Positions 16,801 to 62,810 are shown, counted from the stretch's first letter. The stretch: DNA of 64,000 nucleotides from an uncultured Lachnospiraceae bacterium (GCA_947628955.1 CANRBX010000003.1:1-64000); one strand, 5' to 3'. The notes: a model not told the origin generated them from the letters alone. Numbers and translations are program-made.

Positions 16801-16844
16801 CAGGAAAACTGGCGTGAAATAAAGTAAAATACAGGATGAGTAAC

Positions 16845-16950
16845 AGGGGCTGACGAAAATATACAGGGAGGGTTTGCCACAATCCGGCTGTACATACAGA
16901 TGAACAGCGGATTTGCGGCAGCCCGACAGGTATTTTGCGGCAGCTCCTTG
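16845..16950. repeat. Dispersed palindromic element, copy 2 (related to 9668-9738)
   Basis: ggggctgacgaaaatatacagggagggtttgccacaatccgg ... ggtattttgcggcagctcc matches the 9668 element with an inserted middle segment. Confidence 0.7.
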
Positions 16951-16974
16951 TTTGAGCATGGAAAGGGTGTTTAT

Positions 16975-18900
16975 ATGAGACGTTTTTTCCAGTATATGAA
17001 ACCATACAGAGGGATGATCGCGCTGGTGATCGCGCTGAAGCTGCTGGCGACAATGACGGAGCTTCTTCTGCCGTACATACTGGAGCACATCATCGACGTT
17101 ACGGTTCCGAAGGGCGTGTTGCATGAGATCTTTCTCTGGGGCGCCCTGATGATCGCGACGGCCCTGCTCGCACGGACTTTCAACATCGCGGGAAACCGCA
17201 GGGCGGTGGAGAATGCGCACAACGTGTCCTACCGGATCCGGCAGGATCTGTTTGCGCGTACGGCGAATCTGTCGGGAAACCAGTTCGATGAGTTCGGCCT
17301 GCCGAGCCTGATCAGCCGCATGACGAGCGACAGCTATAACGTGCAGTCCTGCGCGCAGATGCTGCAGACGCTCTGCGTCCGCGCCCCGATCATGCTGCTC
17401 GGAGGGATCGCGATCACGCTGATGATGGACTGGGTGCTCGCGTCCATCCTCTGTGTGATGCTGCCGATCCTTCTTCTGGTGGTGCTCGGGGTCTCCCGAT
17501 ACGGGATCCCGCTCTACAACCAGGTGCAGCAGAGCCTTGATGACGTCGTGCGCGTGATGCGGGAGAACATCAGCGGGATCCGTGTGGTAAAGGCGCTGTC
17601 TAAGGCGGACTATGAGAAGCGCAGATTTGCCGCCAGCAACGACCGGATGGCGGACAGGGACATCAGGGCGGGCACGGTGATGGCGCTGCCCGGGCCGATC
17701 ATGCAGCTCAGCCTGAACGTCGGACTGACGGCCGTGGTGTTCATCGGGGCGGTGCGGGTGAACAGCGGCGCGGCGGAGCCCGGCGTGATCCTCGCATTTC
17801 TTACCTATTTTAATATGGTTCTGCAGGGGGTTATGGGGCTGAACCGCATTTTCATGATGTTCAGCAAGGCCACGGCGTCTGCAAACCGCATTTCGGAGGT
17901 GCTCGATACGCCGGAGGACCAGCGCGTGCTCAGGCCGGACGAGGCCATGCAGCCCGCGGGGGATGAGTTTATCCGCTTTGAGCATGTCAGCTTCCGGTAC
18001 GGAGAGGAAGATGAGGGGACAGACCGGGATGTCCCGATCCGGGAGACAGAGAAGACGCGCCGGGATGGGCCGGCCCGGGAGACGAAGAAGACACGCCGGG
18101 ATGCCCCGGCCCGGGAAACGGAGAGGACGCGCCGGAATGGCACGGCCCGGGAGGCGAAGAAGACAGGCCATGAGATCCCGGCGCGGGGAGAGGCTCAGAG
18201 CACGCCCGGCGGCCGCGAGAAATGCCTGGACGATATCAGCTTTGCGATCCGGCGCGGCGAGAGCCTCGGGATCATCGGCCCGACGGGCTGCGGAAAGACG
18301 ACGATCGTGAACCTGCTGATGCGCTTTTATGACGCCTCAGAGGGCGGCGTTTTTGTGGACGGACGCGACGTACGCACGTACGAAAAGGATGAGCTGCACA
18401 GGAAATTCGGTGTGGCTTTTCAGAACGACATGGTATTCAATGACACGCTGCGGCGCAATATTTCCTTCGGGCGCCAGGTGACGGAAGCGGCGATGCAGGG
18501 GGCCGTGGAGGACGCGATGGCCGCAGAGTACATCGCTGGCCTGACGGACGGCCTTGACCACGTGGCCGATATCCGGGGAGCGAATCTGTCCGGAGGGCAG
18601 AGACAGAGGCTGCTGATCGCCCGGGCGCTCGCAGCGGATCCGGAGGTCCTGATCCTGGATGACTCTTCTTCCGCGCTGGATTACCGGACGGACGCCGCCC
18701 TGCGCAGGGCCGTACTGGAGCACCACAGGAACACGACGACCATCCTGATCGCCCAGCGCGTCAGCTCGGTGATGAATATGACAAACATTCTCGTGATGGA
18801 CGACGGGCGCTGCATCGGCTATGGCGACCATGAGCACCTGCTCGCAGCCTGCCCGGAGTACCGGGAGATTTTCGAGACACAGATGGGCGCGCTGGCGTGA
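16975..18900 (+). CDS. ABC transporter ATP-binding/permease (exporter half 1) with repetitive linker
   Basis: TMD plus GPTGCGKTT, LSGGQRQR; repeated RETEKTRRDGPA-like linker between TMD and NBD. Confidence 0.92.
   Translation: MRRFFQYMKPYRGMIALVIALKLLATMTELLLPYILEHIIDVTVPKGVLHEIFLWGALMIATALLARTFNIAGNRRAVENAHNVSYRIRQDLFARTANLSGNQFDEFGLPSLISRMTSDSYNVQSCAQMLQTLCVRAPIMLLGGIAITLMMDWVLASILCVMLPILLLVVLGVSRYGIPLYNQVQQSLDDVVRVMRENISGIRVVKALSKADYEKRRFAASNDRMADRDIRAGTVMALPGPIMQLSLNVGLTAVVFIGAVRVNSGAAEPGVILAFLTYFNMVLQGVMGLNRIFMMFSKATASANRISEVLDTPEDQRVLRPDEAMQPAGDEFIRFEHVSFRYGEEDEGTDRDVPIRETEKTRRDGPARETKKTRRDAPARETERTRRNGTAREAKKTGHEIPARGEAQSTPGGREKCLDDISFAIRRGESLGIIGPTGCGKTTIVNLLMRFYDASEGGVFVDGRDVRTYEKDELHRKFGVAFQNDMVFNDTLRRNISFGRQVTEAAMQGAVEDAMAAEYIAGLTDGLDHVADIRGANLSGGQRQRLLIARALAADPEVLILDDSSSALDYRTDAALRRAVLEHHRNTTTILIAQRVSSVMNMTNILVMDDGRCIGYGDHEHLLAACPEYREIFETQMGALA
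18025..18168 (+). repeat. In-frame 36-bp (12-aa) tandem repeat x4 in exporter linker
   Basis: Units at 18025, 18061, 18097, 18133: cgggatg.cccgg.ccgggagac..agaagac.cgc. Confidence 0.93.
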
Positions 18901-46406: not shown

Positions 46407-47498
46407 ATGCTGCGCTGGTATATCATGCAGACTTATACCGGACAGGAGGAAAAGCTGGTGGAGATGGTTCGCCGTGTTGTCCCCCGGGAATTCTACGACG
46501 ACTGCTTCGTTATTTACCATGAGCAGCTCTGGAAGCGCCACCAGGAAAATCAGATCCATATCCGTAGGGTCTTCCCGGGGTATGTGTTCATCACATCCGG
46601 GGATCCGGAGGGGCTGTTCCTCTGCCTGAAAAAGGTTCCGGCCATGTCGAAGCTGCTGGCAGACGGGATACCGGCAGACAGCGGGCTTACATTCCTTCCG
46701 ATGTATCCGGATGAGGCCGCTTTTCTGGGCAGCCTTCTGGACGAGGACCACATCATCCGGCTGTCTTACGTGGCGACGGATGGGAAGGACCATGTCACAT
46801 ATATTTCCGGGCCATTGAAATCATGTGTTTCAGGACATTCAAAGATTGATAGTTCCGAACATCTGGATAAATGTCGCTTCGGGCCTTCAAAGGAAGTTCC
46901 TTCCAGTCCTTCGATTTCGGAAGCGGCCCTTTCTGAACAGTTAACACCAGACAGCAGAAATACTGCAAACCCACCGGTAAGTTACCGGTTCCGGAAGCGT
47001 TACGCAGTGATCAGGGTACTGCTTTCCGGGGAGGAAAAGGAGATCCGTTTGGGGATCATCCTGAATGATGACATCCGCAGGGAGCTTTCCTATGGGAAAG
47101 TTGAGGCGCCGATGAAAATGCCGGAAAAATACCGGGTGCCGGAAATGGCCAGGACTGGCGTGGCCTGTCCTGATGGAAACACAGGCCTTGATAACAGGGC
47201 TTTCCTAGTTGGAGCGGCTGGTACTGCCAGGACTGGCAATGAAAAGTCTTTGCCTGTCGGAACAGGATTTTCCCAGAAAGAAAGCCCGCAGGGGAGCTTG
47301 CAGGATACGTCGGAGGATACGATACGGTGCCTGCCAGAGTTTGTTCCGGGAGATGCTGTGACCGTATCGGAAGGGAGCCTTGCCGGACTTCCGGCAGTCG
47401 TCTGCAGGGTGGGAAAGCAGAAAGCAAGGATCAAAGTATATCTGTTTGGACGGAATCTGGAAATGGAGGTACCGCTCAGCAGTCTGAAGAAGGTTTAG
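46407..47498 (+). CDS. loaP: LoaP-like NusG-family antiterminator with long internal insertions
   Basis: WYIMQTYTGQEEKLVEMVRR NGN domain, RRVFPGYVFI, C-terminal KOW (FVPGDAVTVSEGSLAGLPAVV); heads glycan locus. Confidence 0.82.
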   Translation: MLRWYIMQTYTGQEEKLVEMVRRVVPREFYDDCFVIYHEQLWKRHQENQIHIRRVFPGYVFITSGDPEGLFLCLKKVPAMSKLLADGIPADSGLTFLPMYPDEAAFLGSLLDEDHIIRLSYVATDGKDHVTYISGPLKSCVSGHSKIDSSEHLDKCRFGPSKEVPSSPSISEAALSEQLTPDSRNTANPPVSYRFRKRYAVIRVLLSGEEKEIRLGIILNDDIRRELSYGKVEAPMKMPEKYRVPEMARTGVACPDGNTGLDNRAFLVGAAGTARTGNEKSLPVGTGFSQKESPQGSLQDTSEDTIRCLPEFVPGDAVTVSEGSLAGLPAVVCRVGKQKARIKVYLFGRNLEMEVPLSSLKKV

Positions 47499-47681: not shown

Positions 47682-48953
47682 ATGCAGACAGAAGCATTTG
47701 AGAAGAAGGTATGGCTCTCATCCCCGACGATGCATGGGGATGAGCTCCGGTATGTAACGGAGGCCATAGAGACAAACTGGGTCAGCACCGTGGGGGAGAA
47801 CCTGACGGAGCTGGAGAGACTGGCCTGCGGATACACGGGCTGCGGGAATGCGGTGGCCCTGTCATCCGGGACTGCTGCACTCCACCTGGCCGTGAAGCTG
47901 GCCGGGGAGAGGCTTTACGGACAACCAAGGGCAGGCCATGGGACACTGGAGGGCCGCAGGGTCTTCTGCTCGGATATGACATTTGACGCCACGGTAAACC
48001 CGGTGGCTTACGAGGGCGGAGAGGCAGTCTTCATTGACTCAGAATACGAGACCTGGAACATGGATCCGGAAGCGCTGGAGAAGGCATTTGGGATCTACCC
48101 GGAGGTGAAGCTGGTGGTGCTGGCGAACCTGTACGGGACGCCGGCAAAGCTGGACCAGATCCGGGATATATGCAATGCGCATGGGGCACTGCTGATTGAG
48201 GATGCGGCGGAATCCCTGGGAGCGACGTATAAGGGGATCCAGACAGGGAATTTCGGCGCTTATAACGTGATCTCCTTCAACGGGAACAAGATCATCACCG
48301 GGAGTTCCGGAGGGATGCTGCTGACGGATGACAGGGAGGCAGCGGACAAGGCCCGGAAATGGTCGACGCAGAGCCGGGAAGCGGCGCCGTGGTACCAGCA
48401 TGAGGAGCTGGGGTACAACTACCGGATGAGCAACATCATCGCGGGGATCGTGAGGGGCCAGTTCCCCTATCTGGATGAGCATATCCGGCAGAAGAAAGAG
48501 ATCTACATGAGGTACAGGGAAGGGTTCAGGGATCTGCCGGTACAGATGAACCCGTACATAGAGGGGAGCATGGAACCGAACTTCTGGCTGAGCTGTCTGC
48601 TGATCGACCGGGAAGCGATGTGCCGGCAGGTGAGGGGCGAGAAGGAAGCATTATATATAGAAGAAAAAGGAAAGAGCTGCCCGACGCAGATTTTGGAGAA
48701 GCTGACCTGGTGTAATGCGGAAGGACGCCCGATCTGGAAGCCGATGCATTTGCAGCCAGTGTACCGAATGAACCCGTTCGTCACAAAGGATGGGAGCGGA
48801 AGGGCGAGGTCAAATGCTTATATAAATACAGACGCTGCCGCAGACGTCGGAGCGGATATCTTTGGGCGGGGGCTGTGCCTGCCGAGCGACAACAAGATGA
48901 CCGAAGAGCAGCAGAACAGGGTTATTGATATCGTCCGCGGCTGCTTTCAATGA
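47682..48953 (+). CDS. DegT/DnrJ/EryC1/StrS aminotransferase (PglE-like)
   Basis: SSGTAALHLAVKLAG, EDAAESLGATYKG, SFNGNKIITGSSGGMLLT, NYRMSNI. Confidence 0.94.
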   Translation: MQTEAFEKKVWLSSPTMHGDELRYVTEAIETNWVSTVGENLTELERLACGYTGCGNAVALSSGTAALHLAVKLAGERLYGQPRAGHGTLEGRRVFCSDMTFDATVNPVAYEGGEAVFIDSEYETWNMDPEALEKAFGIYPEVKLVVLANLYGTPAKLDQIRDICNAHGALLIEDAAESLGATYKGIQTGNFGAYNVISFNGNKIITGSSGGMLLTDDREAADKARKWSTQSREAAPWYQHEELGYNYRMSNIIAGIVRGQFPYLDEHIRQKKEIYMRYREGFRDLPVQMNPYIEGSMEPNFWLSCLLIDREAMCRQVRGEKEALYIEEKGKSCPTQILEKLTWCNAEGRPIWKPMHLQPVYRMNPFVTKDGSGRARSNAYINTDAAADVGADIFGRGLCLPSDNKMTEEQQNRVIDIVRGCFQ

Positions 48954-49140: not shown

Positions 49141-50691
49141 ATGTGGGATAAGAAGTATAGAGATGAGCTGGCCTGCCGCCGTTCTTCTGCGATGTCAGGC
49201 GGCGGGGAAAAGCGTATCGAAAACCAGCATAAAAAAGGGAAGCTGACGGCCAGAGAACGACTGGACTGTCTTTTTGACAAGGGCTCTTTTGTGGAGATCA
49301 ATACCCTGGTAGAATCTCAGGATTCACACTTCGGAATGGATAAAAAGAGAATACCCGGTGACGGGGTAGTTACCGGCTATGGTACTGTCAATGGCCGTGT
49401 AGTCTATGCATCCGCCCAGGACTTCACTGTGATCGGAGGAACTCTCGGGGAATATCATTCGAAAAAGATCTGCCATATTATGGATATGGCCCTTCAGATG
49501 AAAGCGCCGTATGTCAGCATCAATGATTCCGGCGGGGCCCGCATCGAGGAGGGGATCAGTTCCCTAGATGGCTATAGCGGGATTTTCTACCGGAACACGA
49601 AGGCCTCCGGTATTATCCCGCAGATATCTGTGATCATGGGTCCATGCGCAGGCGGCGCCTGCTATTCGCCGGCCATTACGGACTTTATCTTTATGACGAA
49701 AAGGACGGCCAATATGTTCATCACAGGGCCGGCAGTTGTGAAGGCCGTGGTTGGGGAGGACATCAGTGCGGAAGAACTTGGGGGTGCGGATGTCCATGCC
49801 GCTGAAAGCGGAGTAGTTCATTTTACTTATGATGATGACAAGGCCTGTCTGGATGGGGTGAAAAAACTCCTGTCATATCTGCCAGAAAATTGTGATGAGA
49901 AGCCGCCATTGGTGATAGGCAAGGCCAGGGATGAGTCTTACCGGCTGGAAGAAATCGTACCCGACAACCAGAGAAAATCGTATGACATGAAGGAAGTTAT
50001 CAATGCTTTCGTGGATACGGAGTCTTTCTTTGAGGTTCATGAAGAATTTGCCAGGAATATCATAGTCGGATTCGCCCGGATCGATGGGGAGACGATAGGC
50101 GTCGTAGGAAATAATCCCAAGGGGGGAATGGCAGGTTCTCTGGATATTGATTCTTCTGAAAAAGCCGCGAGGTTTGTCCGTTTCTGTGACTGTTTCAACA
50201 TCCCCCTGCTGACTCTCGTGGATGTACCGGGATTCTTCCCCGGCAGTAAGCAGGAGCATGGGGGAATCATCAGGCGGGGAGCCAAGCTCTTATACGCTTA
50301 TGCGGAAGCAACGGTACCGAAGGTCACCCTGATCCTGCGGAAGGCCTATGGCGGCGCGTATATAGCGATGAACAGCAAAGGAATGGGTGCCGATATCGTA
50401 TTCGCCTGGCCGATTGCCGAGACGGCTGTAATGGGCGCGGAAGGGGCTGTCGGCATCATGTACGGGAAGCAGATCGCGGCCTCCCAGGATCCGGAAACAG
50501 AGAAGAACAGGCTGGTGGCAGAATATGAAGGGCAGTTCATGACGCCATATATTGCGGCTGAACGGGGATACATTGATGAAGTCATCCTTCCGGAAGAAAC
50601 ACGGGGACGGATCCAAAGCGCCTTTGAGGCATTGAAGCTGAAGGACAGACAGGCGGCGGGCTTCCGGGCGCATGGGAATATTCCATTGTAA
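49141..50691 (+). CDS. Acyl-CoA carboxylase carboxyltransferase subunit (PccB/MmdA-like)
   Basis: LTARERLDCLFDKGSFVEI, GGARIEEGI, VDVPGFFPGSKQEHGGIIRRGAKLLYAYAEATVPKVTLILRKAYGGAYIAM. Confidence 0.93.
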   Translation: MWDKKYRDELACRRSSAMSGGGEKRIENQHKKGKLTARERLDCLFDKGSFVEINTLVESQDSHFGMDKKRIPGDGVVTGYGTVNGRVVYASAQDFTVIGGTLGEYHSKKICHIMDMALQMKAPYVSINDSGGARIEEGISSLDGYSGIFYRNTKASGIIPQISVIMGPCAGGACYSPAITDFIFMTKRTANMFITGPAVVKAVVGEDISAEELGGADVHAAESGVVHFTYDDDKACLDGVKKLLSYLPENCDEKPPLVIGKARDESYRLEEIVPDNQRKSYDMKEVINAFVDTESFFEVHEEFARNIIVGFARIDGETIGVVGNNPKGGMAGSLDIDSSEKAARFVRFCDCFNIPLLTLVDVPGFFPGSKQEHGGIIRRGAKLLYAYAEATVPKVTLILRKAYGGAYIAMNSKGMGADIVFAWPIAETAVMGAEGAVGIMYGKQIAASQDPETEKNRLVAEYEGQFMTPYIAAERGYIDEVILPEETRGRIQSAFEALKLKDRQAAGFRAHGNIPL

Positions 50692-50696
50692 GGAAG

Positions 50697-51341
50697 ATGA
50701 AAATGAAAAACATTGTGATTATTGGTGCCGGAGACCTGGGAAAAGAGATTGTCTGGCTGATTGAGGATATCAATAAAAGGAGGCCTACATACCTGATCCT
50801 TGGATTCCTGGATGATGAAATAGCTAAGAATCAGAAAGAGTTTTATGGGTATAAGGTTCTTGGGCCAGTGGACCGGCTGGATGAATTGACTGTGCCATTC
50901 AGTGGAGTCATGGCGTTTCAGGACGGCAGCGTCCGCAGAAGGATTGCTGAGTCGCACCCAAAAGTGGCGAACTGGGAGACAATTATCCACCCGACAGCTG
51001 TGATTGCGGATTCAAGTAAGATTGGGAAAGGAAGCATTTTTTTCCCGCAGACAACTGTTTCAGTAGATAGTCAGCTGGGAAAGTTTGGATTGTATTATAT
51101 TCACTCGACGGTCTGCAATGACTGCAGTGTTGGAAATTATGTTTCAGTGATGACCGGGGCATCAATTCTTGAACATGCGAAGGTCGGAGATGGATGTTTC
51201 CTTGCGGCAGGCAGCTGTGTATATCCGCACAGGCAAGTTGGCAAGGAAGTAAAAGCAGGAGTTGAGGCAACAATTTCCCGGGATTGCAGTGACGGCGCGG
51301 AAGTCAATGAGAAGGGATCGGGCTTTTTCTTATTCAAGTAG
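50697..51341 (+). CDS. NeuD/PglD-family hexapeptide acyltransferase
   Basis: NIVIIGAGDLGKEIVWLIEDIN nucleotide-binding N-term and left-handed beta-helix C-term. Confidence 0.85.
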   Translation: MKMKNIVIIGAGDLGKEIVWLIEDINKRRPTYLILGFLDDEIAKNQKEFYGYKVLGPVDRLDELTVPFSGVMAFQDGSVRRRIAESHPKVANWETIIHPTAVIADSSKIGKGSIFFPQTTVSVDSQLGKFGLYYIHSTVCNDCSVGNYVSVMTGASILEHAKVGDGCFLAAGSCVYPHRQVGKEVKAGVEATISRDCSDGAEVNEKGSGFFLFK

Positions 51342-51358: not shown

Positions 51359-52231
51359 ATGGTAAACGCATTATTATTCCCCGGACAGGGATCCCAGGAA
51401 GTCGGAATGGGAAAAGAACTGTATGAACAGTTGCAACAAGCCAAAGCTCTGCTGGATGAAGCGTGTGACATCGCAGGATATGATCTGAAAGATCTGATGT
51501 TTAACGGCCCAATAGAGAAACTGACGGATACGAAATATGCCCAGCCGGCAATTTATATCTGCTCCGCCATGTATCTGGAAAAGGCGAAGCAAAACGGTCT
51601 GGAATATAGCTATGTGGCGGGGCACAGCCTGGGCGAATACAGCGCTCTTTATGCCGCAGGAGTTTTCAGCTTTGCAGATGGACTGCGGTTGATCTGCAGG
51701 CGCGGAGAGGCGATGAGCGATGAGAATGGAAAAGGAATTATGGCTGCGGTTCTTGGTTTGGACGAGAATGAGCTTCGGAATTATGTCGAAGAAACGCCGG
51801 GAGTGGTTATGGCAAATCTGAATACAAAGACGCAGATCGTTATTTCCGGTACAAAAGAAGGCGTAGACAGGATTGCGGTTGCTCTCTCCGGCAGGGAGGA
51901 TGTCAAGGTTCGGCAGTTGAATGTCAGTGCGGCGTTCCATAGCCCGCAGATGAAGGATGCGGCAGAGGTTATGGAAAAGGAGATAGAGAAAGTAAGTTTC
52001 CATGGGCCAAAGGCTTGCGTGGTATCGAATGTGACGGGAAAGCCGACGAAGAATATAAAAGAAATTCGAAAAAATCTTCTGCTGCAGATCACCGGGCAGG
52101 TCCGGTGGTATGACAGCATTATGGCAATGAAAAACGCTGGAGTGGAAGCATTCTATGAAGTTGGGAATGGACAGGTCCTGAGGAAGATGAACCGGGCCAT
52201 TACGCTTCAGCCCAAATGTTTCAGTATATAG
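51359..52231 (+). CDS. fabD: ACP S-malonyltransferase
   Basis: LFPGQGSQEVGMGKEL, AGHSLGEYSAL. Confidence 0.94.
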   Translation: MVNALLFPGQGSQEVGMGKELYEQLQQAKALLDEACDIAGYDLKDLMFNGPIEKLTDTKYAQPAIYICSAMYLEKAKQNGLEYSYVAGHSLGEYSALYAAGVFSFADGLRLICRRGEAMSDENGKGIMAAVLGLDENELRNYVEETPGVVMANLNTKTQIVISGTKEGVDRIAVALSGREDVKVRQLNVSAAFHSPQMKDAAEVMEKEIEKVSFHGPKACVVSNVTGKPTKNIKEIRKNLLLQITGQVRWYDSIMAMKNAGVEAFYEVGNGQVLRKMNRAITLQPKCFSI

Positions 52232-52249: not shown

Positions 52250-52879
52250 ATGACAGATTTAATCATTGTTGGAGCAAGCGGATTTGGGCGGGAGCTCTTA
52301 GCTACAATAGAATCTATCAATGAGATTGAACCCACATGGAATGTCCTTGGGTTTATTGATGATGATCCTGATGCATTGGATGGATATGAGATAGACTATA
52401 AAGTCCTTGGTTCTATAACAGATTGGAAACCGAAAGGTGAGGAACTGTATGCACTTGGGATTGCAAATCCCAGGACAAAGGAAAAGATTGTTCCTATTCT
52501 CAAGAATAGAGGGGCGCGGTTTGCTACTGTGATTGCCCCTACAGCGACGGTGGAGAGAGGAACGAAGCTTGGAGAAGGGGTCGTAGCATTTGGGTATACA
52601 GGGATCAGCGTTAATGTCCGAGTTGGGAATTTTGTTTTCTTTAATGCCATGGTGGGCATCGGGCATGATGCTGATATAGGGGATTACTGTACATTTGGTC
52701 CCAAGGCCTGTATATCTGGAAAATCCTCAATCGGTAAATGTGTGAATGTTGGTGCACTTGCCTCAACATATCCGGGCGTATCTGTCGGAGATTATGCCAC
52801 TATTGGTATGAACAGCGCTGTTATAAGACGGGTTAAACCAAACACTACAGTTATTGGTGTACCCGCAAAAAAAATATAA
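52250..52879 (+). CDS. NeuD/PglD-family hexapeptide acyltransferase
   Basis: DLIIVGASGFGRELLATIESINEIEPTWNVLGFIDDD; hexapeptide repeats. Confidence 0.9.
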   Translation: MTDLIIVGASGFGRELLATIESINEIEPTWNVLGFIDDDPDALDGYEIDYKVLGSITDWKPKGEELYALGIANPRTKEKIVPILKNRGARFATVIAPTATVERGTKLGEGVVAFGYTGISVNVRVGNFVFFNAMVGIGHDADIGDYCTFGPKACISGKSSIGKCVNVGALASTYPGVSVGDYATIGMNSAVIRRVKPNTTVIGVPAKKI

Positions 52880-52899: not shown

Positions 52900-53121
52900 A
52901 TGAATAACGAAAAGAAAATGGAATTACTGGCGGACATCCTTGATATTGAGGCCGAGGAGCTGACCCCGGAAACCAGATTGGTTGATATGGAGGAGTGGGA
53001 TTCTATCGCTGCACTATCCTTTATCGCAATGATGGATGAGGAATTCGGTAAGGAGTTCAAAGGTGCGGATGTCAAGAAAATTGTTACCGTTCAAGACGCC
53101 CTGAATGTCATGGAGGAGTAA
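52900..53121 (+). CDS. Acyl carrier protein
   Basis: EEWDSIAALSFI phosphopantetheine site. Confidence 0.9.
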   Translation: MNNEKKMELLADILDIEAEELTPETRLVDMEEWDSIAALSFIAMMDEEFGKEFKGADVKKIVTVQDALNVMEE

Positions 53122-53126
53122 TACAG

Positions 53127-54188
53127 GTGCTAGCTAAGGAGTTTCATAATGTCCGGATCACCGGACTTGCGTGCGCTGTCCCGAACAATAAGGTCAGAAC
53201 GGACAGCTATGCTTACCATTTCGGAGAAGAAGCCGTTGCCAAGTTTAAAAAGGCTACCGGAATAGAAGCGCGTTTTCTTTCTGACGGTCGTCAGACTGCG
53301 TCAGATCTTTGCTATGTTGCAGCAAGAAAATTGATGGAGAAAAAAGGTCTGACCGAAGATGATATTGACGCGCTTATTTTTATTACGCAGACGCCGGATT
53401 ACAAAATCCCTTCTTCCGCATTTGTTCTCCATAAAAGACTTAACATCAAAAAGGACTGCATTGTTTTTGACGTTAATCTGGGGTGCTCTGGCTATGTCAA
53501 CGGTATCTATATAGTAGCAGGACTTATTGAAAGCGGCACTATCAATCGCGCTTTGCTGTTGGTAGGAGATGCGGATACAAATCATCAGATTACGGATGAT
53601 ACGTCTTTCACTATGATGTTTGGAGATGCAGGATCTGCTACCTTGCTGGAGCGCGACGAAGGAAACATCCGAGGCCTGATTCGCTCTGACGGCGATGGTT
53701 TCAACACGCTCATTACTCCGATTCCGGGAGCAAGATTCCCCGGAGTTTACCCTGGTATGGAGGCGGATGACCTTAAGATTGCAAAAAAAATGGACGGCGA
53801 CGACGTATTCCTGTTTGCCATCACAAAGGTTCCGAAGCTTTTCAAGGAGTTTTTCACGACATTCGGCACGAACGTGGACGACTACGATTATGTGATACTT
53901 CATCAGGCAAATCTGATGATCATCAACCAGATAGCGAAGAAGCTTAAAGTACCGGCAGAGAAAATACCGGTCTCTTTAACGGAGTATGGGAATACGGATG
54001 GTGCTTCTGTTCCAGTCGGTATTGTGGATCTCTGCGAAAAAATGGAAGGAACAAGGAAATTAAACCTGATCACTTCCGGTTTTGGCATCGGTCTGTCCTG
54101 GGGAGTCGTGTCGTTCGAAATGGATACCTCTGACGTTTTGCCCATGATTTTTACAGACGATTATTTCAGGGAGGGAAAAGATGTCTGA
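53127..54188 (+). CDS. 3-oxoacyl-ACP synthase III family protein (KASIII-1)
   Basis: Catalytic Cys in LGCSGY, HQAN, EYGNTDGASVP. Confidence 0.92.
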   Translation: MLAKEFHNVRITGLACAVPNNKVRTDSYAYHFGEEAVAKFKKATGIEARFLSDGRQTASDLCYVAARKLMEKKGLTEDDIDALIFITQTPDYKIPSSAFVLHKRLNIKKDCIVFDVNLGCSGYVNGIYIVAGLIESGTINRALLLVGDADTNHQITDDTSFTMMFGDAGSATLLERDEGNIRGLIRSDGDGFNTLITPIPGARFPGVYPGMEADDLKIAKKMDGDDVFLFAITKVPKLFKEFFTTFGTNVDDYDYVILHQANLMIINQIAKKLKVPAEKIPVSLTEYGNTDGASVPVGIVDLCEKMEGTRKLNLITSGFGIGLSWGVVSFEMDTSDVLPMIFTDDYFREGKDV

Positions 54189-54900
54189 AGCAAAAACAGT
54201 ATTAGTAACCGGATGTACCTCTGGCATTGGTCTTGTGGTGTCGCACTATTTGCATGATCAGGGGTATCGACTAGTACTGGTTGGAAGAAACGAGGAAAAG
54301 CTCAAAAAGGTTTCCTCGGAAACAGGAAATGCGCCTTACATTGTATGTGACCTTGAGGATGGCGATCAAATTCGTGGGATTTTCGATTATTGCATCAAAA
54401 TTGGAATGAAGTTGAGCGGTTTGATACACTGCGCCGGATTTACTTTAAATTCGCCTATTCGTTCATTGCGGGATGAGGATATGAAAAGGCAAATGCAAAT
54501 TCATTATTATGCTTTTGTAGACTTGTGCAAGAATTTTTACAGGAGAAGTATTTCCTCTGATGGATCCAGTATTGTAGTCATGTCGTCTTTTTCAACCTAT
54601 ACGAAGAGAAAAGGTTCCGTAGCTTATGCCGCGGCAAAAAGCGCGGTAAATACAGCAGTGTCCATTGCGTCTAAAGAGTTCTTGAAACGGTCTATTCGGG
54701 TAAACGCGATTTTATCGGCATATGTTGATACCCCATTGATTGATGGCCTGGACGAGCTTCTGGATGTATCTGAAGTACAACCGATGGGTCTCATTCCACC
54801 AAAAGCCATTGCTGAATTGGCGGAGTTTCTGATTTCGGATAAGTCAAAATACATAACCGGCGCTCTTATTCCGGTATCGGCAGGCATGGAGGGCAACTGA
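54181..54900 (+). CDS. SDR family oxidoreductase
   Basis: VTGCTSGIG, YAAAKSAV. Confidence 0.92.
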   Translation: MSEAKTVLVTGCTSGIGLVVSHYLHDQGYRLVLVGRNEEKLKKVSSETGNAPYIVCDLEDGDQIRGIFDYCIKIGMKLSGLIHCAGFTLNSPIRSLRDEDMKRQMQIHYYAFVDLCKNFYRRSISSDGSSIVVMSSFSTYTKRKGSVAYAAAKSAVNTAVSIASKEFLKRSIRVNAILSAYVDTPLIDGLDELLDVSEVQPMGLIPPKAIAELAEFLISDKSKYITGALIPVSAGMEGN

Positions 54901-54901
54901 T

Positions 54902-55663
54902 ATGTGGAATCCGTATGACTTCAGTGGAAAAAGATTTATCGTTACCGGCGCCGGCTCAGGCATAGGGAAAGCGACCGCTGTGCGTCTCTCGGAGCAGGGG
55001 GCCGAGGTATGTTTGATCGTGAGGAGCGAAAGACGGGCCGAAGAAGTAAAGCCCCTTCTGCCCGGGACGGGCCATCGGTTTTACATCAAGGATCTGAACG
55101 AATCCGGCGGATATAAGGAGATTTTTGATGACATTGTCAGCGACGGGCATAAGATTGATGGATTGGTTTACAGCGCCGGGATCGCCAAAATTCTGCCGGT
55201 GACCCTGTTCAATAAAGCGAACATGGATGAGAGCATGACGGTCAATTTATATTCCTTCGCTGAAATGGTGGGGCTTTTATCAAAAAAGAAGTACCACGAT
55301 AAGGCTAACGTGGTGGGCGTGTCATCCATTTCTGTCCGATATCCGCAGAAATGTCAGGGAATTTATTTAGCGACAAAAGCAGGCATGAACGCTATGGTCA
55401 CATCGATGGCCATCGAGCTGGCGGATAAGAATATTCGTATCAATACCCTGATGCCCGGAGCCGTAAACACCCCCATGTTGAAAGCAGCCCATGCGGACAA
55501 GACGAAAGAGCAAATCGAAGAGGTTCTGAAAAAATCCGTTCTTGGCCTAGCGGAACCCGAGGATATAGCGGACATCATCCTGTTTTTACTTTCGGATGCA
55601 TCGAGGATGATTACGGGCCGGGAAATATACGCCGACGGCGGGCTGATAAACGTATGCATCTGA
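54902..55663 (+). CDS. SDR family oxidoreductase
   Basis: VTGAGSGIGKA, YLATKAGMN. Confidence 0.92.
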   Translation: MWNPYDFSGKRFIVTGAGSGIGKATAVRLSEQGAEVCLIVRSERRAEEVKPLLPGTGHRFYIKDLNESGGYKEIFDDIVSDGHKIDGLVYSAGIAKILPVTLFNKANMDESMTVNLYSFAEMVGLLSKKKYHDKANVVGVSSISVRYPQKCQGIYLATKAGMNAMVTSMAIELADKNIRINTLMPGAVNTPMLKAAHADKTKEQIEEVLKKSVLGLAEPEDIADIILFLLSDASRMITGREIYADGGLINVCI

Positions 55664-55667
55664 ATTA

Positions 55668-56546
55668 TTGAGAGGGAGTGTGAAATCATTGGACGGGCTT
55701 TTTTCGGATTCTAACGGCAAAATTTATTCTGCTCAGGATGTTTACAATTCTCTTCGGGATATAGGGGCTGGGGACTGCGGCAGCTTGTTTATACATTCCG
55801 ACGTGATGTTCGGCAGCCCGTTGCCCGGATTTAAACGGCGGGAGTATCTCAGCACGCTATATCAGGTCGTAGAAAGATTGGGCGTGAAGCAAATCATCGT
55901 TCCGACGTTTACATACAGTTTTTGCAATAATGAGGATTACGACGTTTTGAACAGCAAAACCTCTATGGGGGCATTTAACGAGTATGTGCGAAAATTGGAC
56001 GGAAGGTATAGAACTATTGACCCGCTTCTTTCGGTTTCTGTCCCCTCTGCACTGAAGCGGAAATTTGAAAATATAAGCAATCATTCTCTTGGAGTTGACA
56101 GCGGGCTAGACCGGCTCCATCACCTTGACGGTGTGAAATTCCTCTTTTTGGGTGCGGAAATGGCAGACTGCTTTACATATGTTCATTATGTTGAGAAGAT
56201 GATGGATGTTCCGTACAGATTTGATATGGCGTTTGAGGGTGATATTGTTGATTACGATAACAAACGTTCAAGACGCAGGCAGGTTATCCATACACAGTGT
56301 GGCGGTGTAAAGCTGCCGCCAAAATATGATTATTTTGAAAACAGTATGGTTGAAAAAGGAATGCTGAAAAAGAAAAGACTGGGCAATAAGTATGTCGCCT
56401 GCATTTCGGAATGTGATGCATATAGGGAAATTGCAAACAATATAAAAAACAATATCAATTATTACCTGGAAGAACCTTTTGCGGCGGGAGATTTAACGCA
56501 CATATACACATACGACCGCACGAAGGGTAGAATAACGCATTGCTGA
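55668..56546 (+). CDS. AAC(3)-family acyltransferase
   Basis: LFIHSDVMFG, VPTFTYSFCN, DPLLSVSVPS, LFLGAEMADCFTYVHYVE pattern. Confidence 0.82.
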   Translation: MRGSVKSLDGLFSDSNGKIYSAQDVYNSLRDIGAGDCGSLFIHSDVMFGSPLPGFKRREYLSTLYQVVERLGVKQIIVPTFTYSFCNNEDYDVLNSKTSMGAFNEYVRKLDGRYRTIDPLLSVSVPSALKRKFENISNHSLGVDSGLDRLHHLDGVKFLFLGAEMADCFTYVHYVEKMMDVPYRFDMAFEGDIVDYDNKRSRRRQVIHTQCGGVKLPPKYDYFENSMVEKGMLKKKRLGNKYVACISECDAYREIANNIKNNINYYLEEPFAAGDLTHIYTYDRTKGRITHC

Positions 56547-56559
56547 AGGAGAAAGAAAA

Positions 56560-58083
56560 GTGAAAACCCATTTGCTCGATTTCTTTGAAATTACGCAGAA
56601 GGCCAAGCCGGATGCTGTCGCCGTGGTTCACAAAAAAGAAAGCATCACCTTTTCCGCCTTGAAAGACCGGGCAGAAAAACTGGCAACGATCCTTGAAGAT
56701 AATATTGGCGGAAGGATCAACTCTCCTATTGCGGTCTTTCTCCCCAAGGAGATCAACACGGTCACGGCAGATCTGGGGATCATGTATTCCTGCAATCCGT
56801 TCATGAATCTTGATGTGAAAACACCTAGGGAAAGAATCATGAATATCTTCGAGATGGTGAAGCCCTCTGCTGTTATCACAAGGAAGATTTATAAAGGTAT
56901 TCTGGAGGGCCTGGATATTCCGATTGTGTTCATGGATGAAATTGACTGGAGCGGTGTGAAATTCAGCGAAGCCCATCTCATCGAAAAGAGAAAGCGGCTC
57001 ATAGATACAGATCCGTTTTGCCTCATTAATACGTCCGGGTCGACCGGGACCCCGAAGGGTGTTGTCTTAAATCACAGAAGCTTCTTCGATTTTATGGCAG
57101 TCTCCAATGAGAACTTTGGCTTTGACGGTTCCGAGATACTGGGTTCCCTGTCACCGGTTGTGTTTGATATTTTTGATTTTGAATTGTGTATGCTGATGGT
57201 GAACGGTTCCCAGCTGGTGCTTCTGGATGCGTTTCTGGCATCGTTCCCGGTTCGATTGCTGGAGGCATTGGCGGAGAATAAGGTAAGTTTTATTTTCTGG
57301 GTGCCGTCCATCATGGTCAACATAGCCAACTTAAAGCTTTTGGAGCGTGTACCTCTGCCAGATTTGAAGTTGGTATGGTTTGCAGGGGAAGTCTTCCCCA
57401 CGAAACAGTTTTTGGTGTGGTACGATAATCTTCCCAATACAAAATTCGCAAACCTTTATGGCCCTATTGAGATCACGCTTGACTGCACGTTCTACGTTGT
57501 CAATGAACGGCCGGCGGAGAGCGAACCCCTGCCGATCGGGGTCCCTTACCGCAATACGGATATCCTGATCCTGAATGAGGATGACCGGCCCTGTGGGACA
57601 GGGGAGGAAGGGGAACTTTGTGTACGCGGAACTTCCCTTGCTATGGGTTATTACAATAATCCGGAGAAGACGGCCGCAGCCTTTACACAGAATCCGCTAA
57701 ATAAGTCTTATCCGGAGACCATCTATCGGACCGGCGATATGGTTTACCGGCGGGAAGACGGGAACATCATGTTCAAGGGAAGGAAAGACAGCCTGATCAA
57801 GCATATGGGTTATCGGATAGAGCTTGGAGAGATCGAACACGCTATAGAGAATGATCTTAAGATCGTCCGGTATTGCTGTGCGGTTTACCAGTACGCAAAA
57901 AAGGCGATCGTTCTCTATTATGAGAATGACTCTGAAATCTCTGAAAAGGATTTCCGAAGTGCATTGGGAAAGGTATTCCCCGCGTATATGATTCCGGGAA
58001 TATTTATAAAAACGGACGAATTGCCACGGAATACAAACGGAAAGATAGACAGGCTGTTATTAAAGAACTTGGCAAATAACTGA
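56560..58083 (+). CDS. Stand-alone adenylation (AMP-binding) protein, DltA/NRPS A-domain type
   Basis: NTSGSTGTPKGVVLNHRS, NLYGPIEITLDCTFY, YRTGD, NGKIDR. Confidence 0.92.
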   Translation: MKTHLLDFFEITQKAKPDAVAVVHKKESITFSALKDRAEKLATILEDNIGGRINSPIAVFLPKEINTVTADLGIMYSCNPFMNLDVKTPRERIMNIFEMVKPSAVITRKIYKGILEGLDIPIVFMDEIDWSGVKFSEAHLIEKRKRLIDTDPFCLINTSGSTGTPKGVVLNHRSFFDFMAVSNENFGFDGSEILGSLSPVVFDIFDFELCMLMVNGSQLVLLDAFLASFPVRLLEALAENKVSFIFWVPSIMVNIANLKLLERVPLPDLKLVWFAGEVFPTKQFLVWYDNLPNTKFANLYGPIEITLDCTFYVVNERPAESEPLPIGVPYRNTDILILNEDDRPCGTGEEGELCVRGTSLAMGYYNNPEKTAAAFTQNPLNKSYPETIYRTGDMVYRREDGNIMFKGRKDSLIKHMGYRIELGEIEHAIENDLKIVRYCCAVYQYAKKAIVLYYENDSEISEKDFRSALGKVFPAYMIPGIFIKTDELPRNTNGKIDRLLLKNLANN

Positions 58084-58096
58084 AAGGACAATTGAT

Positions 58097-58327
58097 ATGA
58101 ACGATATCGCGGAGATGCTGATTGAATTGAAGCCAGAGGTCAACTTCGGGGAAAGCGATGATTTTATTATGGATGGCCTTCTGGATTCCTTTGATATTAT
58201 CTCGCTTACGAGTATGATCGAGGAAAAATACGGGATAACTGTAGACGGGCTGGACATTGTCCCAGAGAATTTCTGCTCTGTCGAAGCGGTTATAGAGCTT
58301 ATTAGGAAGTCCGGAGGAACAGTCTGA
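58097..58327 (+). CDS. Acyl/peptidyl carrier protein
   Basis: GLLDSFDIISL phosphopantetheine site, DltC-like size. Confidence 0.9.
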   Translation: MNDIAEMLIELKPEVNFGESDDFIMDGLLDSFDIISLTSMIEEKYGITVDGLDIVPENFCSVEAVIELIRKSGGTV

Positions 58328-59397
58328 TGCAGACGCGGTTTATCGATAAGGCCATCACTTCCATCCTGGGTGTATTACCGGAGACGGTGGGGCTGTTTGA
58401 TGATGAGGTCGGCAATTATACTTTTCCGCCGAAGCAGACACTGCGTCTAAAAAGGATGATGGGTTTTAAACAACACCGTCTGGCGAAAGGAACTACTACG
58501 GTGTCTGATTTTGGAACATACGGACTAAGATATATGCTGGATAATGGGTGGATCCGTGCGGATGAAATCGGTGCGCTTATTGTGGTAACGCTTTGCCCGG
58601 ATTACTTTGTGCCGCATGTCAGCAATATCGTACAGGCGGACTGTGGGCTTCCGACGGATACGATCTGCATGGATATCGCGCAGGGCTGTTGCGGTTTTAT
58701 CCTGGGGCTCATGCAGGCATTTCTGCTGTTGGAACACATGGAGGGGAAAAAGGCCGTCCTGATTAATGGAGATGTACTGAGCCATAAGATTTCAAAGCGT
58801 GACAGGAATGATTATCCGCTGATCGGTGATGCGGCGGCGATAACGGTCGTGGAGAATCGGAAAAATACGCCGGAGGTCTACTTTGAGTTCCATAATGACG
58901 GTTCCCGGGGGAATGCGCTTAAAATACCCGCGGGAGCGTTCCGGATGCCATCATCCCCTGAAACAGCGGAAATGACAGATCAGGGGGATGGAAATTTCAG
59001 GGCGCTCGACCATATGCATATGGACGGGGGCGGGGTATTTAATTTTGTCCAGACCGAGGTACCGCCGATGTTGGAACATGCTTTTAAGGAGGCAGGCCTT
59101 TCTGTCAATGAAATAGACTGTTTCCTGTTCCACCAGCCAAACCGCTTTATGTTGCAGAAGCTTGCGGAGAAGGCGCAGCTGCCATTTGAAAAACTTCCCA
59201 TGAACCTGGTTGAGAACTATGGCAATCCCAGCGGAGCATCCATACCGCTTACGGCCATCCTGAATTACAGGGATGAGCTGTTGAATGAAAAGAAAAGGTG
59301 CTGCCTGTCTGCGTTTGGTTCCGGGCTGGCCTGGGGAGCCATGTTTATGGAAATAGGCGGGCTTGAGCATTGCGAAATGATAGAAACAGATCTGTAA
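58327..59397 (+). CDS. 3-oxoacyl-ACP synthase III family protein (KASIII-2)
   Basis: AQGCCGF active-site Cys, FHQPN, NYGNPSGASIP. Confidence 0.92.
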   Translation: MQTRFIDKAITSILGVLPETVGLFDDEVGNYTFPPKQTLRLKRMMGFKQHRLAKGTTTVSDFGTYGLRYMLDNGWIRADEIGALIVVTLCPDYFVPHVSNIVQADCGLPTDTICMDIAQGCCGFILGLMQAFLLLEHMEGKKAVLINGDVLSHKISKRDRNDYPLIGDAAAITVVENRKNTPEVYFEFHNDGSRGNALKIPAGAFRMPSSPETAEMTDQGDGNFRALDHMHMDGGGVFNFVQTEVPPMLEHAFKEAGLSVNEIDCFLFHQPNRFMLQKLAEKAQLPFEKLPMNLVENYGNPSGASIPLTAILNYRDELLNEKKRCCLSAFGSGLAWGAMFMEIGGLEHCEMIETDL

Positions 59398-59439
59398 TTG
59401 ATAAATTGGAAAGCAAATTCGTTTCGGCTGAGGTGCATA

Positions 59440-60354
59440 ATGAGGTTTAAGAAAATACTGGTCATAGGTTCCGGGAAAATAGCGTCAGACTGTGTCAGGA
59501 TCCTGTGCAGGGACATGGAAATAACATATATTGAGGCCATAGAATCGGCAAACAACCAGTTTTCCATGTTGAAAAAAGCATGTGTAAAATATGCCCTGCG
59601 CTACAGGACATTATTAAAAAAGGAGCTTATTTCGGAAGCGATTATGGAAGCTTCGCAGGCAGGGCCCCTGCTGATTATCAGCGCCAATAACAGGTACCTT
59701 TTTCCTGCCGGTATATGTGAACTGCCGGAGGTGGAAATCATTAATTTCCATTACGGGTACCTTCCCAGATACAGGGGGATGAACATTCCGACATGGGTCA
59801 TTTATAACAACGAGCCATTTACAGGCGTCACGTGGCATTATGTCACAAGCGAGGTAGACCGCGGTGAGATCATCATCCAGCAGAAGATTCTGCTCTCCGA
59901 AGACACCACGGCTTACGAAGTGGTACGCGATGGCATGAGAGCCGGGACGGAGCTGTTCCGGTTCTTTATCCCGGAACTTCTGAAAAAAAAGATAAGCGGG
60001 AAGGAGATACTTACCAATGAGCATGTATACCTGAACAAGCGTCTTCCCGAGGATGGAAAACTGGACCCGGACAAGGATGTTTTGGAAATATACAGGCTGC
60101 TGCGAAGCTTCGATTACGGAAGGACAGGGACCCTGAAGCCGTTAAAGGTGTGTATGGACGGTACGGATTATCTTGTGGAAGGCTATTCCCTGGAAGATTC
60201 CGGTGTCGAGGAGAAAACGGTGCTGCTTCAGCAGGACAGGCTGGTGATTACCGGAGGGAGAAAGACGTTGATGATCGATCTGAGGAAAGAGGATGAAGAG
60301 GATAGATATCGGCAGCGGTATGAGCATCTATCAGTTTACAGGCAGAACTCTTGA
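59440..60354 (+). CDS. Formyltransferase-family protein
   Basis: ISANNRY, INFHYGYLPRYRGMNIPTW, VTSEVDRGEIIIQQ. Confidence 0.87.
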   Translation: MRFKKILVIGSGKIASDCVRILCRDMEITYIEAIESANNQFSMLKKACVKYALRYRTLLKKELISEAIMEASQAGPLLIISANNRYLFPAGICELPEVEIINFHYGYLPRYRGMNIPTWVIYNNEPFTGVTWHYVTSEVDRGEIIIQQKILLSEDTTAYEVVRDGMRAGTELFRFFIPELLKKKISGKEILTNEHVYLNKRLPEDGKLDPDKDVLEIYRLLRSFDYGRTGTLKPLKVCMDGTDYLVEGYSLEDSGVEEKTVLLQQDRLVITGGRKTLMIDLRKEDEEDRYRQRYEHLSVYRQNS

Positions 60355-61087
60355 TGCCAATTCATTTGTCATAATGGAGGGAAATGAGGCGCTTATCATT
60401 GACGCGGTTGACAGCAGTGATATGGTCTCTTTTTTATTGGATCGGTATGAGGGAAAGGATGCCAATGGCGTGTCTTCTGAATTATGGACGCTTGACAGAG
60501 GGATTGCCGGCGGCGGAACCCCGAAACTGACCATCCTGTTGACGCATGAGCATTTTGACCATATCAGTGGCTTGGCGGTTTTAAGGGATAGATTCAGGTG
60601 CCATGTGGTTTCTTCCGGGGACTGCAGTGCGCGGATACAGTCGTCGCAGACAAACCTGTCTTCGATAGGGGATGCTCTATTGCTAATGCACAGCGGGATG
60701 CAACAGGAGCCACACGATACCATTCCGCGATACGGTGCGGATGCGTCGGATGAAGAATTTATTCAGGACAGCGTTATTGTATGGCATGGACATAACATTT
60801 TTTGCCATCTTATGCGCGGGCACTCATTGGGGTCTGTGGGCTATATCCTTGACGGGAGTATTCTGTTCTCTGGAGACGAAATACTTGCGATTCCGACATT
60901 GACCAGACTGCCCGGGGGAAATACGAAGGCGTTCTGGTACGAGGATATGCCATGGCTGAAATCAATCAGTGATCAGATTTTCTTGGTGTGTCCGGGCCAT
61001 GGGACACCGGGAAAGTTGGAAGATATGATAAGCGGCAATACAATGCCGAAAAGATTCAGGAATATGGGAGAGAAAGCAAATGCATAG
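60293..61087 (+). CDS. MBL-fold metallohydrolase, copy 1
   Basis: [21 protein letters not shown] motifs. Confidence 0.92.
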   Translation: MKRIDIGSGMSIYQFTGRTLDANSFVIMEGNEALIIDAVDSSDMVSFLLDRYEGKDANGVSSELWTLDRGIAGGGTPKLTILLTHEHFDHISGLAVLRDRFRCHVVSSGDCSARIQSSQTNLSSIGDALLLMHSGMQQEPHDTIPRYGADASDEEFIQDSVIVWHGHNIFCHLMRGHSLGSVGYILDGSILFSGDEILAIPTLTRLPGGNTKAFWYEDMPWLKSISDQIFLVCPGHGTPGKLEDMISGNTMPKRFRNMGEKANA

Positions 61088-61154
61088 GCAGGGCATCTAT
61101 GAAAGATATATAAAACGACCGCAGGATTTGTTCATCCGGTTAAAGACATCATGA
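61080..61154 (+). pseudogene. 5' fragment of sugar transferase gene left by duplication
   Basis: [24 protein letters not shown]: first 16 residues match the intact gene at 62187. Confidence 0.85.
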
Positions 61155-61366
61155 GTGCGGTGGAATATGTTAATGAAGACATACAGACAATTGGCCTGGC
61201 GGCCGAAGGCGAGAAAGCACTGAGGTTTGCAAATGCCGCATCTGCCAGGGGAGCAGTAAGGTTTCCTGCCTGTGGGAGGATGCTTAATTTTGATTCACCC
61301 TGGGATGGAATATACCTGGCAGACAGAATGGTCAGATGGGTTACAATAGGCGGACCGATGGTATGA
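61127..61366 (+). pseudogene. C-terminal gene remnant, possibly LuxC-like acyl-CoA reductase
   Basis: FVHPVKDIMSAVEYVNEDIQTIGLAAEGEKALRFANAASARGAVRFPACGRMLNFDSPWDGIYLADRMVRWVTIG; layout resembles LuxC C-termini. Confidence 0.4.
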
Positions 61367-61405
61367 AAAAACATATCTATATAAGGTTTATTGTGGTGGA
61401 AAGTG

Positions 61406-62194
61406 ATGGACAAAGTAGACATCGGTGGCGGCATTTACATTTACCGGTTTGAAGGTGATTATTTCGATGCCAATTCATATATCATAATAGAAGGAAATGA
61501 GGCGCTTATCATTGACGCAGTTGACAGCAGTGATATGGTCTCTTTTTTATTGGGCGAATATGAGGGAGGGGATACTAATGCCATGTTCTCTGAATTATGG
61601 ATGCCTGACAGAGAGACTGCCGGTGGTGGGAATCCGGGATTGACTATCCTGCTGACGCATGAACATTTTGACCATATCGGCGGGCTGGAGACGCTGCGCA
61701 GCCGGTTCAGATGTCATGTAATCGCGTCGAAAGAATGCAGCAGACGGATCCAGTCATCCCAGGCCAACCTGTCTTCGATCGGGGATACTCTGCTGGCCAT
61801 GCATAACGGAACAGGGCCGAAGAAATTGATCCCGAGATATGAAGCAGCGGCGGCAGATGCGGAATTTCCAGATGAATGTTCCATCATGTGGAACGGGCAC
61901 AGGATATTGTGCCATCCTATGCGCGGGCATTCGCCCGGCTCCGCCGGATACATTCTGGATGGGAAAATCCTGTTTTCCGGAGATGAGATCCTTCCGATCC
62001 CGACAGTGACCAGGCTGCCCGGAGGGGATACGAGGGCGTTCTGGTATGAGGATATGCCATGGCTGGAATCGCTCGGGACCCAGCTCTCTTTAGTGTGTCC
62101 GGGCCATGGGACGCCGGGGAAGCTGGAAGATATGATAAGCGTCAATGCGATGCCGAAAAGGTTCAGGAATATGGGAGAGAAAGCAAATGCATAG
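61406..62194 (+). CDS. MBL-fold metallohydrolase, copy 2
   Basis: Close paralog of 60293-61087, same motifs. Confidence 0.92.
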
Positions 62195-62810
62195 GCAGGG
62201 TATCTATGAGAGGTACATAAAACGGCCGCAGGATTTCCTGTGTGCGCTTCTGGCATCGATCGTACTTTCTCCGGTGATGCTGGTGACGGCGCTGCTTGTG
62301 CGGAAAAAGCTGGGCCGCCCGGTCCTGTTCACCCAGGACAGGCCGGGAAAAGACGGGAAGGTTTTTAAACTTTATAAGTTCCGGTCCATGACAAGCCAGA
62401 GGGATAAGGATGGGAAACTGCTTCCGGATGAGGCAAGGCTTACCGGCTTTGGAAAGAAGCTGCGGTCGACATCCCTCGATGAGCTTCCGGAGCTGTTCAA
62501 TGTTTTAAAAGGGGACATGAGCGTAGTGGGGCCGAGGCCGCTGCTGGTCGAATATCTGCCACGGTACAATAAGCACCAGGCCAGAAGGCATGAAGTGCGG
62601 CCGGGGATCACTGGCCTGGCGCAGGTGCACGGCCGGAATGCGATCAGCTGGGAGGAAAAGTTCGGCTGGGACGTGAAATATGTGGAGCATGTCACGTTTT
62701 TAGGGGATTGGAAGATTATCTTTCTGACGGTAATGGCCGTGCTGAAAAGGGAAGGGATCAGCGCGGTGGGGGAGGCAACGATGGGGGAGTTTACGGAAAA
62801 AGAGAGCTGA
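62187..62810 (+). CDS. Initiating sugar transferase (monotopic PGT, PglC-like)
   Basis: [59 protein letters not shown]. Confidence 0.93.

Follow-up and report, generated by a model that had tools for sequence, protein, structure and literature searches.

Gene content of the operon

The window, that is, the whole 64,000-nucleotide stretch of DNA that was analysed, comes from a Lachnospiraceae-like bacterium and carries a surface-glycan operon. The genes between 49141 and 60354 read on the plus strand as a single operon, with intergenic gaps of -8 to +20 bp, and follow each other from the carboxyltransferase to the formyltransferase-like gene in the order given in Table 1. As the initial annotation had claimed, ACP1 is followed by KASIII-1, and an adenylation protein (A protein) by ACP2 and KASIII-2; the coordinates, all the motifs named for the two pairs and the common operon were confirmed. 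The pairing of a KASIII with an A-domain also holds, but the remark that this takes the place of FabD is incomplete, because both FabD and a carboxyltransferase are encoded in the same operon. On the same strand, a NusG-like regulator and a LegC-type aminotransferase lie upstream, while two metallo-beta-lactamase-fold (MBL) proteins, a PglC-like sugar transferase and LicD lie downstream. Further along contig C3, genes resembling glycosyltransferases and a FlaA1-type dehydratase were noted by reading the sequence. The PglC-like transferase ties the acyl unit to glycan assembly.

Three side observations were made in the window. The NusG-like protein near the operon head (46407-47498) has 363 residues, far more than usual for NusG/LoaP. 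The two MBL genes (60293-62194) are tandem duplicates with 71% protein identity and 77% DNA identity over 785 bp. At 14518-18171, very long ORFs overlap on opposite strands (760 aa on plus, 1187 aa on minus).

Table 1. Features of the operon and its flanks, with window coordinates
Feature	Coordinates	Strand	Evidence
DegT/LegC-type sugar aminotransferase (makes amino sugar)	47682..48953	+	Pfam PF01041 2.7e-75; NCBIfam best match LegC-family
Carboxyltransferase, PccB/MmdA type; probably dedicated to malonyl-CoA supply	49141..50691	+	Pfam PF01039 1.8e-189
PglD-like left-handed beta-helix acyltransferase 1	50697..51341	+	PF17836 + PF00132
FabD malonyl transferase	51359..52231	+	PF00698 6e-44
PglD-like acyltransferase 2	52250..52879	+	PF17836 + PF00132
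ACP1, WDSI class (EEWDSIAAL); proposed malonyl/extender carrier	52900..53121	+	PF00550
KASIII-1 (GCSG, HQAN, YGNTDG); probably optional second condensing enzyme	53127..54188	+	PF08541/PF08545
SDR1, ketoreductase-like	54181..54900	+	PF13561 2.2e-41; alignment with FabG
SDR2, ketoreductase-like; conserved partner of KASIII-2 unit	54902..55663	+	PF13561 1.4e-50
AAC(3)/Antibiotic_NAT-family N-acyltransferase; proposed acyl transfer to amino sugar	55668..56546	+	PF02522 9.4e-20
Stand-alone adenylation protein, pocket code DIFFWALLDK	56560..58083	+	Pfam AMP-binding; TIGR01733 1.6e-91
ACP2, LLDSFD class; proposed aminoacyl carrier	58097..58327	+	Weak NCBIfam ACP matches; orthologues
KASIII-2 (GCCG, HQPN, YGNPSG); separate-clade condensing enzyme	58327..59397	+	Pfam; clade 100/100
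Formyltransferase	59398..60354	+	PF00551; best PDB match a sugar formyltransferase
MBL-fold hydrolase 1; possible thioesterase/editing	60293..61087	+	PF00753
MBL-fold hydrolase 2	61391..62194	+	Tandem duplicate of hydrolase 1
PglC-like polyprenyl-phosphate sugar transferase	62145..62810	+	PF02397 1.9e-61

KASIII proteins, adenylation protein and ACP2

Both KASIII proteins exceed the Pfam cut-offs for the ACP_syn_III and ACP_syn_III_C domains and have the same best PDB match, the 3-oxoacyl-ACP synthase 4efi, but share just 29% identity. Are they housekeeping FabH? Neither reaches the cut-off of the NCBIfam fabH model (TIGR00747, 292.1 bits), KASIII-1 scoring 184.6 and KASIII-2 145.8 bits. Residues were then compared, in E. 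coli numbering, with those of five FabH, one from E. coli and four housekeeping ones from relatives. The C112/H244/N274 triad is present in 31/31 KASIII-2 sequences and 10/10 KASIII-1-like ones, so that both active sites are intact, as initially described. The FabH residues W32, R36, T37 and R249, which serve as contacts for CoA and the donor ACP, are lost from all 31 KASIII-2 in the alignment: W32 is replaced by R or K, R36 by V, I, M or Q, T37 by M or I and R249 by F, and A246 is P throughout. In the five FabH, W32, T37 and R249 are always kept and R36 is H in one. The KASIII-1-like proteins lack W32, R36 and R249 while T37 is retained in 9 of 10. Since KASIII-1 is also without W32 and R36, their absence is no specific mark of aminoacyl priming; since both enzymes are without them, the use of acyl-CoA, assumed at first as the KASIII substrate, is doubtful. 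On the tree, the 15 KASIII-2 proteins included, out of the 31 surveyed from at least seven families, form one clade (support 100/100) with a long stem (1.25). Thus KASIII-2 shares its family and triad with FabH, but stands apart from it both in phylogeny and at these contact positions. An AlphaFold model of KASIII-2, built from three sequences, had a mean pLDDT of 46, too poor for use.

In the organism's own genome, four KASIII matches were found, all inside two glycan loci. No stand-alone housekeeping FabH was found in this assembly, which is 94% complete, so its absence is not certain; the fab cluster (L038, contig C18) holds ACP, FabD, FabG and FabF but no FabH. A congeneric species (G152) does have a stand-alone FabH.

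The adenylation protein has intact core motifs, and its TIGR01733 score of 307.1 bits is slightly under the 317.4 cut-off. Its pocket positions, anchored by motif, read DIFFWALLDK. Nine other orthologues have exactly this code and two more differ from it by a single letter, at identities as low as 56%; further A proteins of the unit have DNLFLALVDK or DILFLAMVDK, and the pattern D..F.A..DK is conserved in nearly all. The pocket residues D235 and K517 are present and point to an alpha-amino acid as the probable substrate. The specificity code called for by the initial annotation could thus be read, and the 10 letters gave no confident assignment to one amino acid. ACP2 has no Pfam match and only weak NCBIfam ACP matches; its 14 aligned orthologues are 37-91% identical.

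Conservation of the unit among relatives

Relatives of KASIII-2 are rare. They were found in 6/298 genomes of the family sample, 5/388 of the class, 6/398 of the phylum (a figure that includes L036, which is KASIII-1-like and excluded from the KASIII-2 count) and 14/189 of one other order. The survey rests mainly on these genome-sample searches, as a scan of genome contigs gave only three loci; the relatives named in that scan belong to Lachnospiraceae and to Clostridia MAGs. Genes around the 31 loci were identified by blastp with proteins of the window and relatives, and 15 loci were well covered, with at least 6 kb on either side. All 15 full loci have the A protein, ACP2 (in L015 found by manual reading of a gap), another ACP that is not ACP2, and at least one SDR. 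GNAT is present in 12/15, the AAC(3)-like gene in 9/15, KASIII-1-like in 7/15, and formyltransferase and MBL in 6/15 each.

Note that KASIII-1 is missing from 8 of the 15 full loci (L015, L017, L018, L023, L025, L035, L078 and L084), and a second ACP and an SDR are kept in all eight. For example in Paenibacillus cellulosilyticus (L023, NZ_CP054613), ACP, SDR, AAC3, A, GNAT, ACP2, KASIII-2 and MBL lie in a row. Malonyl-supply genes also occur beside KASIII-2 in loci without KASIII-1: L015 has FabD and a carboxyltransferase, and a carboxyltransferase lies beside KASIII-2 in L017 (ACCA type) and L018. In the distant loci L077, L078, L080, L082, L085 and L086 an SDR lies immediately 3' of KASIII-2, and L077 has the compact order ACP2-KASIII-2-SDR-AAC3-A-ACP-formyltransferase. 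One locus on a contig of another genome (L033, G751 contig C130, 1-4240) looks decayed, with the A gene interrupted by a long opposite-strand ORF and the formyltransferase frame broken.

Pairwise distances of KASIII-2, ACP2 and A co-vary (r 0.75-0.84, at most 2/2000 permutations; the non-orthologous A protein of L017 was left out), most clearly between ACP2 and KASIII-2 (r=0.84, 0/2000 permutations). KASIII-2 and ACP1 distances also co-vary (r 0.56, 0/2000), while no co-variation was seen between SDR2 and ACP1 (r 0.05). Such co-variation may be simple co-inheritance. The retention of an ACP1-type carrier and SDR without KASIII-1 makes it most likely that KASIII-2 also relies on ACP1 and an SDR, although the SDR and second ACP could belong to a different pathway encoded in this glycan locus.

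Genes for acyl transfer and capping are more variable. The AAC(3)-like proteins conserve a His/Glu pair in 9 sequences. The protein of the window meets only the Pfam family PF02522; with 33.2 bits against a cut-off of 270 on NCBIfam AAC_3, it is by this score no aminoglycoside resistance enzyme. The closest relatives have a GNAT-like gene of about 260 residues after KASIII-2, two members of which match Pfam GNAT well and the others weakly or not. A search of the window for this gene or a remnant found none (best E 0.064). A formyltransferase is present in each of the three full loci without GNAT (probability by chance about 0.04, our own count), which suggests that the amine acetylated elsewhere may be formylated in these loci. 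Since the formyltransferase of the window resembles a sugar formyltransferase, a sugar amine is an equally likely target.

Proposed pathway, its alternatives and known systems

What would such a unit make? The sequence holds intact enzymes in one operon, and the A-ACP2-KASIII-2 core with a second ACP and an SDR is conserved in several families. The links between the parts are those of gene neighbourhood and sequence. On these grounds, we consider the chances about even that the region is a carrier-protein acyl-assembly unit, which extends an aminoacyl group by two carbons and decorates an amino sugar of the surface glycan with the product. In this scenario, the A protein would activate an alpha-amino acid and load it on ACP2, and malonyl for ACP1 would be supplied by the carboxyltransferase and FabD. 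KASIII-2 would take the aminoacyl group from ACP2, not from CoA, and condense it with malonyl-ACP1; an SDR would reduce the beta-keto group, and the AAC(3)-like enzyme would move the resulting gamma-amino-beta-hydroxyacyl group to the sugar amine. The free amine may be capped by the formyltransferase here or by GNAT in most relatives. KASIII-1 and SDR1 would be optional and would make or lengthen a second acyl unit carried by ACP1; the two ACP/KASIII pairs would thus converge.

Does KASIII-2 condense, or does it only transfer? Butirosin and clorobiocin come from aminoacyl-carrier pathways, and CloN2 of clorobiocin is a KASIII-like acyltransferase. In AFC-BC11 as in these two, carrier and A protein are both stand-alone, the carrier receives its amino acid from the A protein, and a KASIII-like enzyme handles the chain. 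KASIII-2 might likewise be an acyltransferase of the SfaN, ChlB3 or AfcL type, taking over the aminoacyl group of ACP2 and passing it to ACP1 or to the acceptor. The gene logic is the same (A protein, carrier, KASIII-like protein, second carrier), KASIII-2 lacks the CoA and ACP contacts of FabH, and acyl transfer was shown for AfcL of the AFC-BC11 antibiotic pathway (AfcQ/AfcK/AfcL) and is cited for SfaN, also a KASIII-like acyltransferase (PMC12186527). However, AfcL is reported to have a Cys-His-Asp triad and makes an amide (PMC12186527), whereas the Asp-for-Asn mark of AfcL/ChlB3-type acyltransferases is absent here, with Asn in 31/31 KASIII-2, and the unit lies in a glycan operon. Cys-His-Asn throughout, SDRs in every full locus and malonyl-supply genes in some KASIII-1-free loci favour condensation; transfer is unlikely, though a serious candidate. 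Extension of an aminoacyl-carrier group by KASIII-2, as first suggested, fits best.

The initial annotation had assigned one separate branch to each ACP/KASIII pair. By such a division, ACP1, KASIII-1 and the SDRs would make a 3-hydroxyacyl group, e.g. 3-hydroxybutyryl, while A, ACP2 and KASIII-2 would make or transfer an aminoacyl group, each with its own acyltransferase (PglD-like, AAC(3)-like). The window does have two KASIII, two SDRs and several acyltransferases, and KASIII-1-type loci without KASIII-2 exist (L005, L036). But the second ACP and SDR remain in 8/8 KASIII-1-free loci, and the window offers one ACP1 only for both KASIII. Two independent branches are therefore quite improbable; the earlier interpretation was partly right, but the parts more likely converge, with KASIII-1 optional. 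Another explanation is D-alanylation by A and ACP2 as a DltA/DltC-like pair, the KASIII genes being lipid genes that have nothing to do with it. The A protein does show DltA-like similarity (8.4e-77), but its 244.8 bits on the NCBIfam DltA model are far under the 559.85 cut-off and the pocket code conserved in the unit is not DltA-like, so its identity as DltA was rejected. As ACP2 also overlaps KASIII-2 by 1 bp and co-varies with it across families, D-alanylation is scarcely credible.

Which sugar would carry the product of the converging pathway? The unit lies a few kb from a flagellin-like and a NeuA-like gene in L037 and adjoins NeuA/NeuB-like genes in L019; in place of these, the locus of the window contains PglC, LicD and a LegC-type aminotransferase. 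From these neighbours, the acyl product is likely to go to the amino sugar that the glycan of each host offers. A comparable case may be the C. jejuni flagellin glycosylation locus, in which ACPs, a FabH2 and an amino-acid-activating enzyme are annotated (Cj1299, Cj1303, Cj1304, Cj1307, Cj1308). On NF009519, the model of the Campylobacter-type FabH, KASIII-2 scores 182.7 bits, far under the cut-off of 436. Pseudaminic acid on C. jejuni flagellin bears acyl and aminoacyl groups, e.g. N-acetylglutamine and di-O-methylglycerate (PMC3068675). In the papers that a literature search found, the function of Cj1303/Cj1307 is not described.

Carrier-protein genes are already known in flagellin glycosylation islands: the Aeromonas group II islands and those of Enterobacteriaceae (FGIs) have acp, 3-oxoacyl-ACP reductase, AMP-dependent synthetase, luxE and luxC (PMC7874193, PMC4875605). 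They resemble our locus in having a carrier, a reductase and an adenylating enzyme in a glycan locus with a proposed acyl decoration, but LuxE/LuxC are listed there and neither KASIII nor an aminoacyl-type A protein/ACP2 pair. Closer to the Aeromonas islands is another locus of this genome, diverged from the first (L005, contig C4, 40000-58500), with a carboxyltransferase 68% identical to that of the window, two PglD-like genes, FabD, SDR, KASIII, two ACPs and KASIII, followed by MBL, SDR, a split transketolase, AMP ligase, GNAT, LuxE and LuxC. Acyl decoration of surface glycans by way of carrier proteins is a known kind of system. Searches of an open-access library found no paper on the present A-ACP-KASIII unit, which is not proof of novelty.

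A more general scenario, which we put forward tentatively as somewhat short of an even chance, is that a dedicated KASIII clade, primed by an aminoacyl carrier protein and not by acyl-CoA, makes a statine-like gamma-amino-beta-hydroxy acid for polysaccharide and flagellin sugars in several Bacillota families. Bacterial glycan loci repeatedly contain acyl-carrier genes, which are commonly attributed to 'fatty acid synthesis' or 'liposugar'; the pocket code and a KASIII clade with invariant residues turn this into a testable pathway with an acyl group, an amino acid and a sugar. If true, it would be a hybrid amino-acid/polyketide route of glycan decoration. It would also mean a new class of non-sugar decorations on the surface glycans of gut bacteria, and KASIII-2 with HQPN and R249F would be a marker for finding them.
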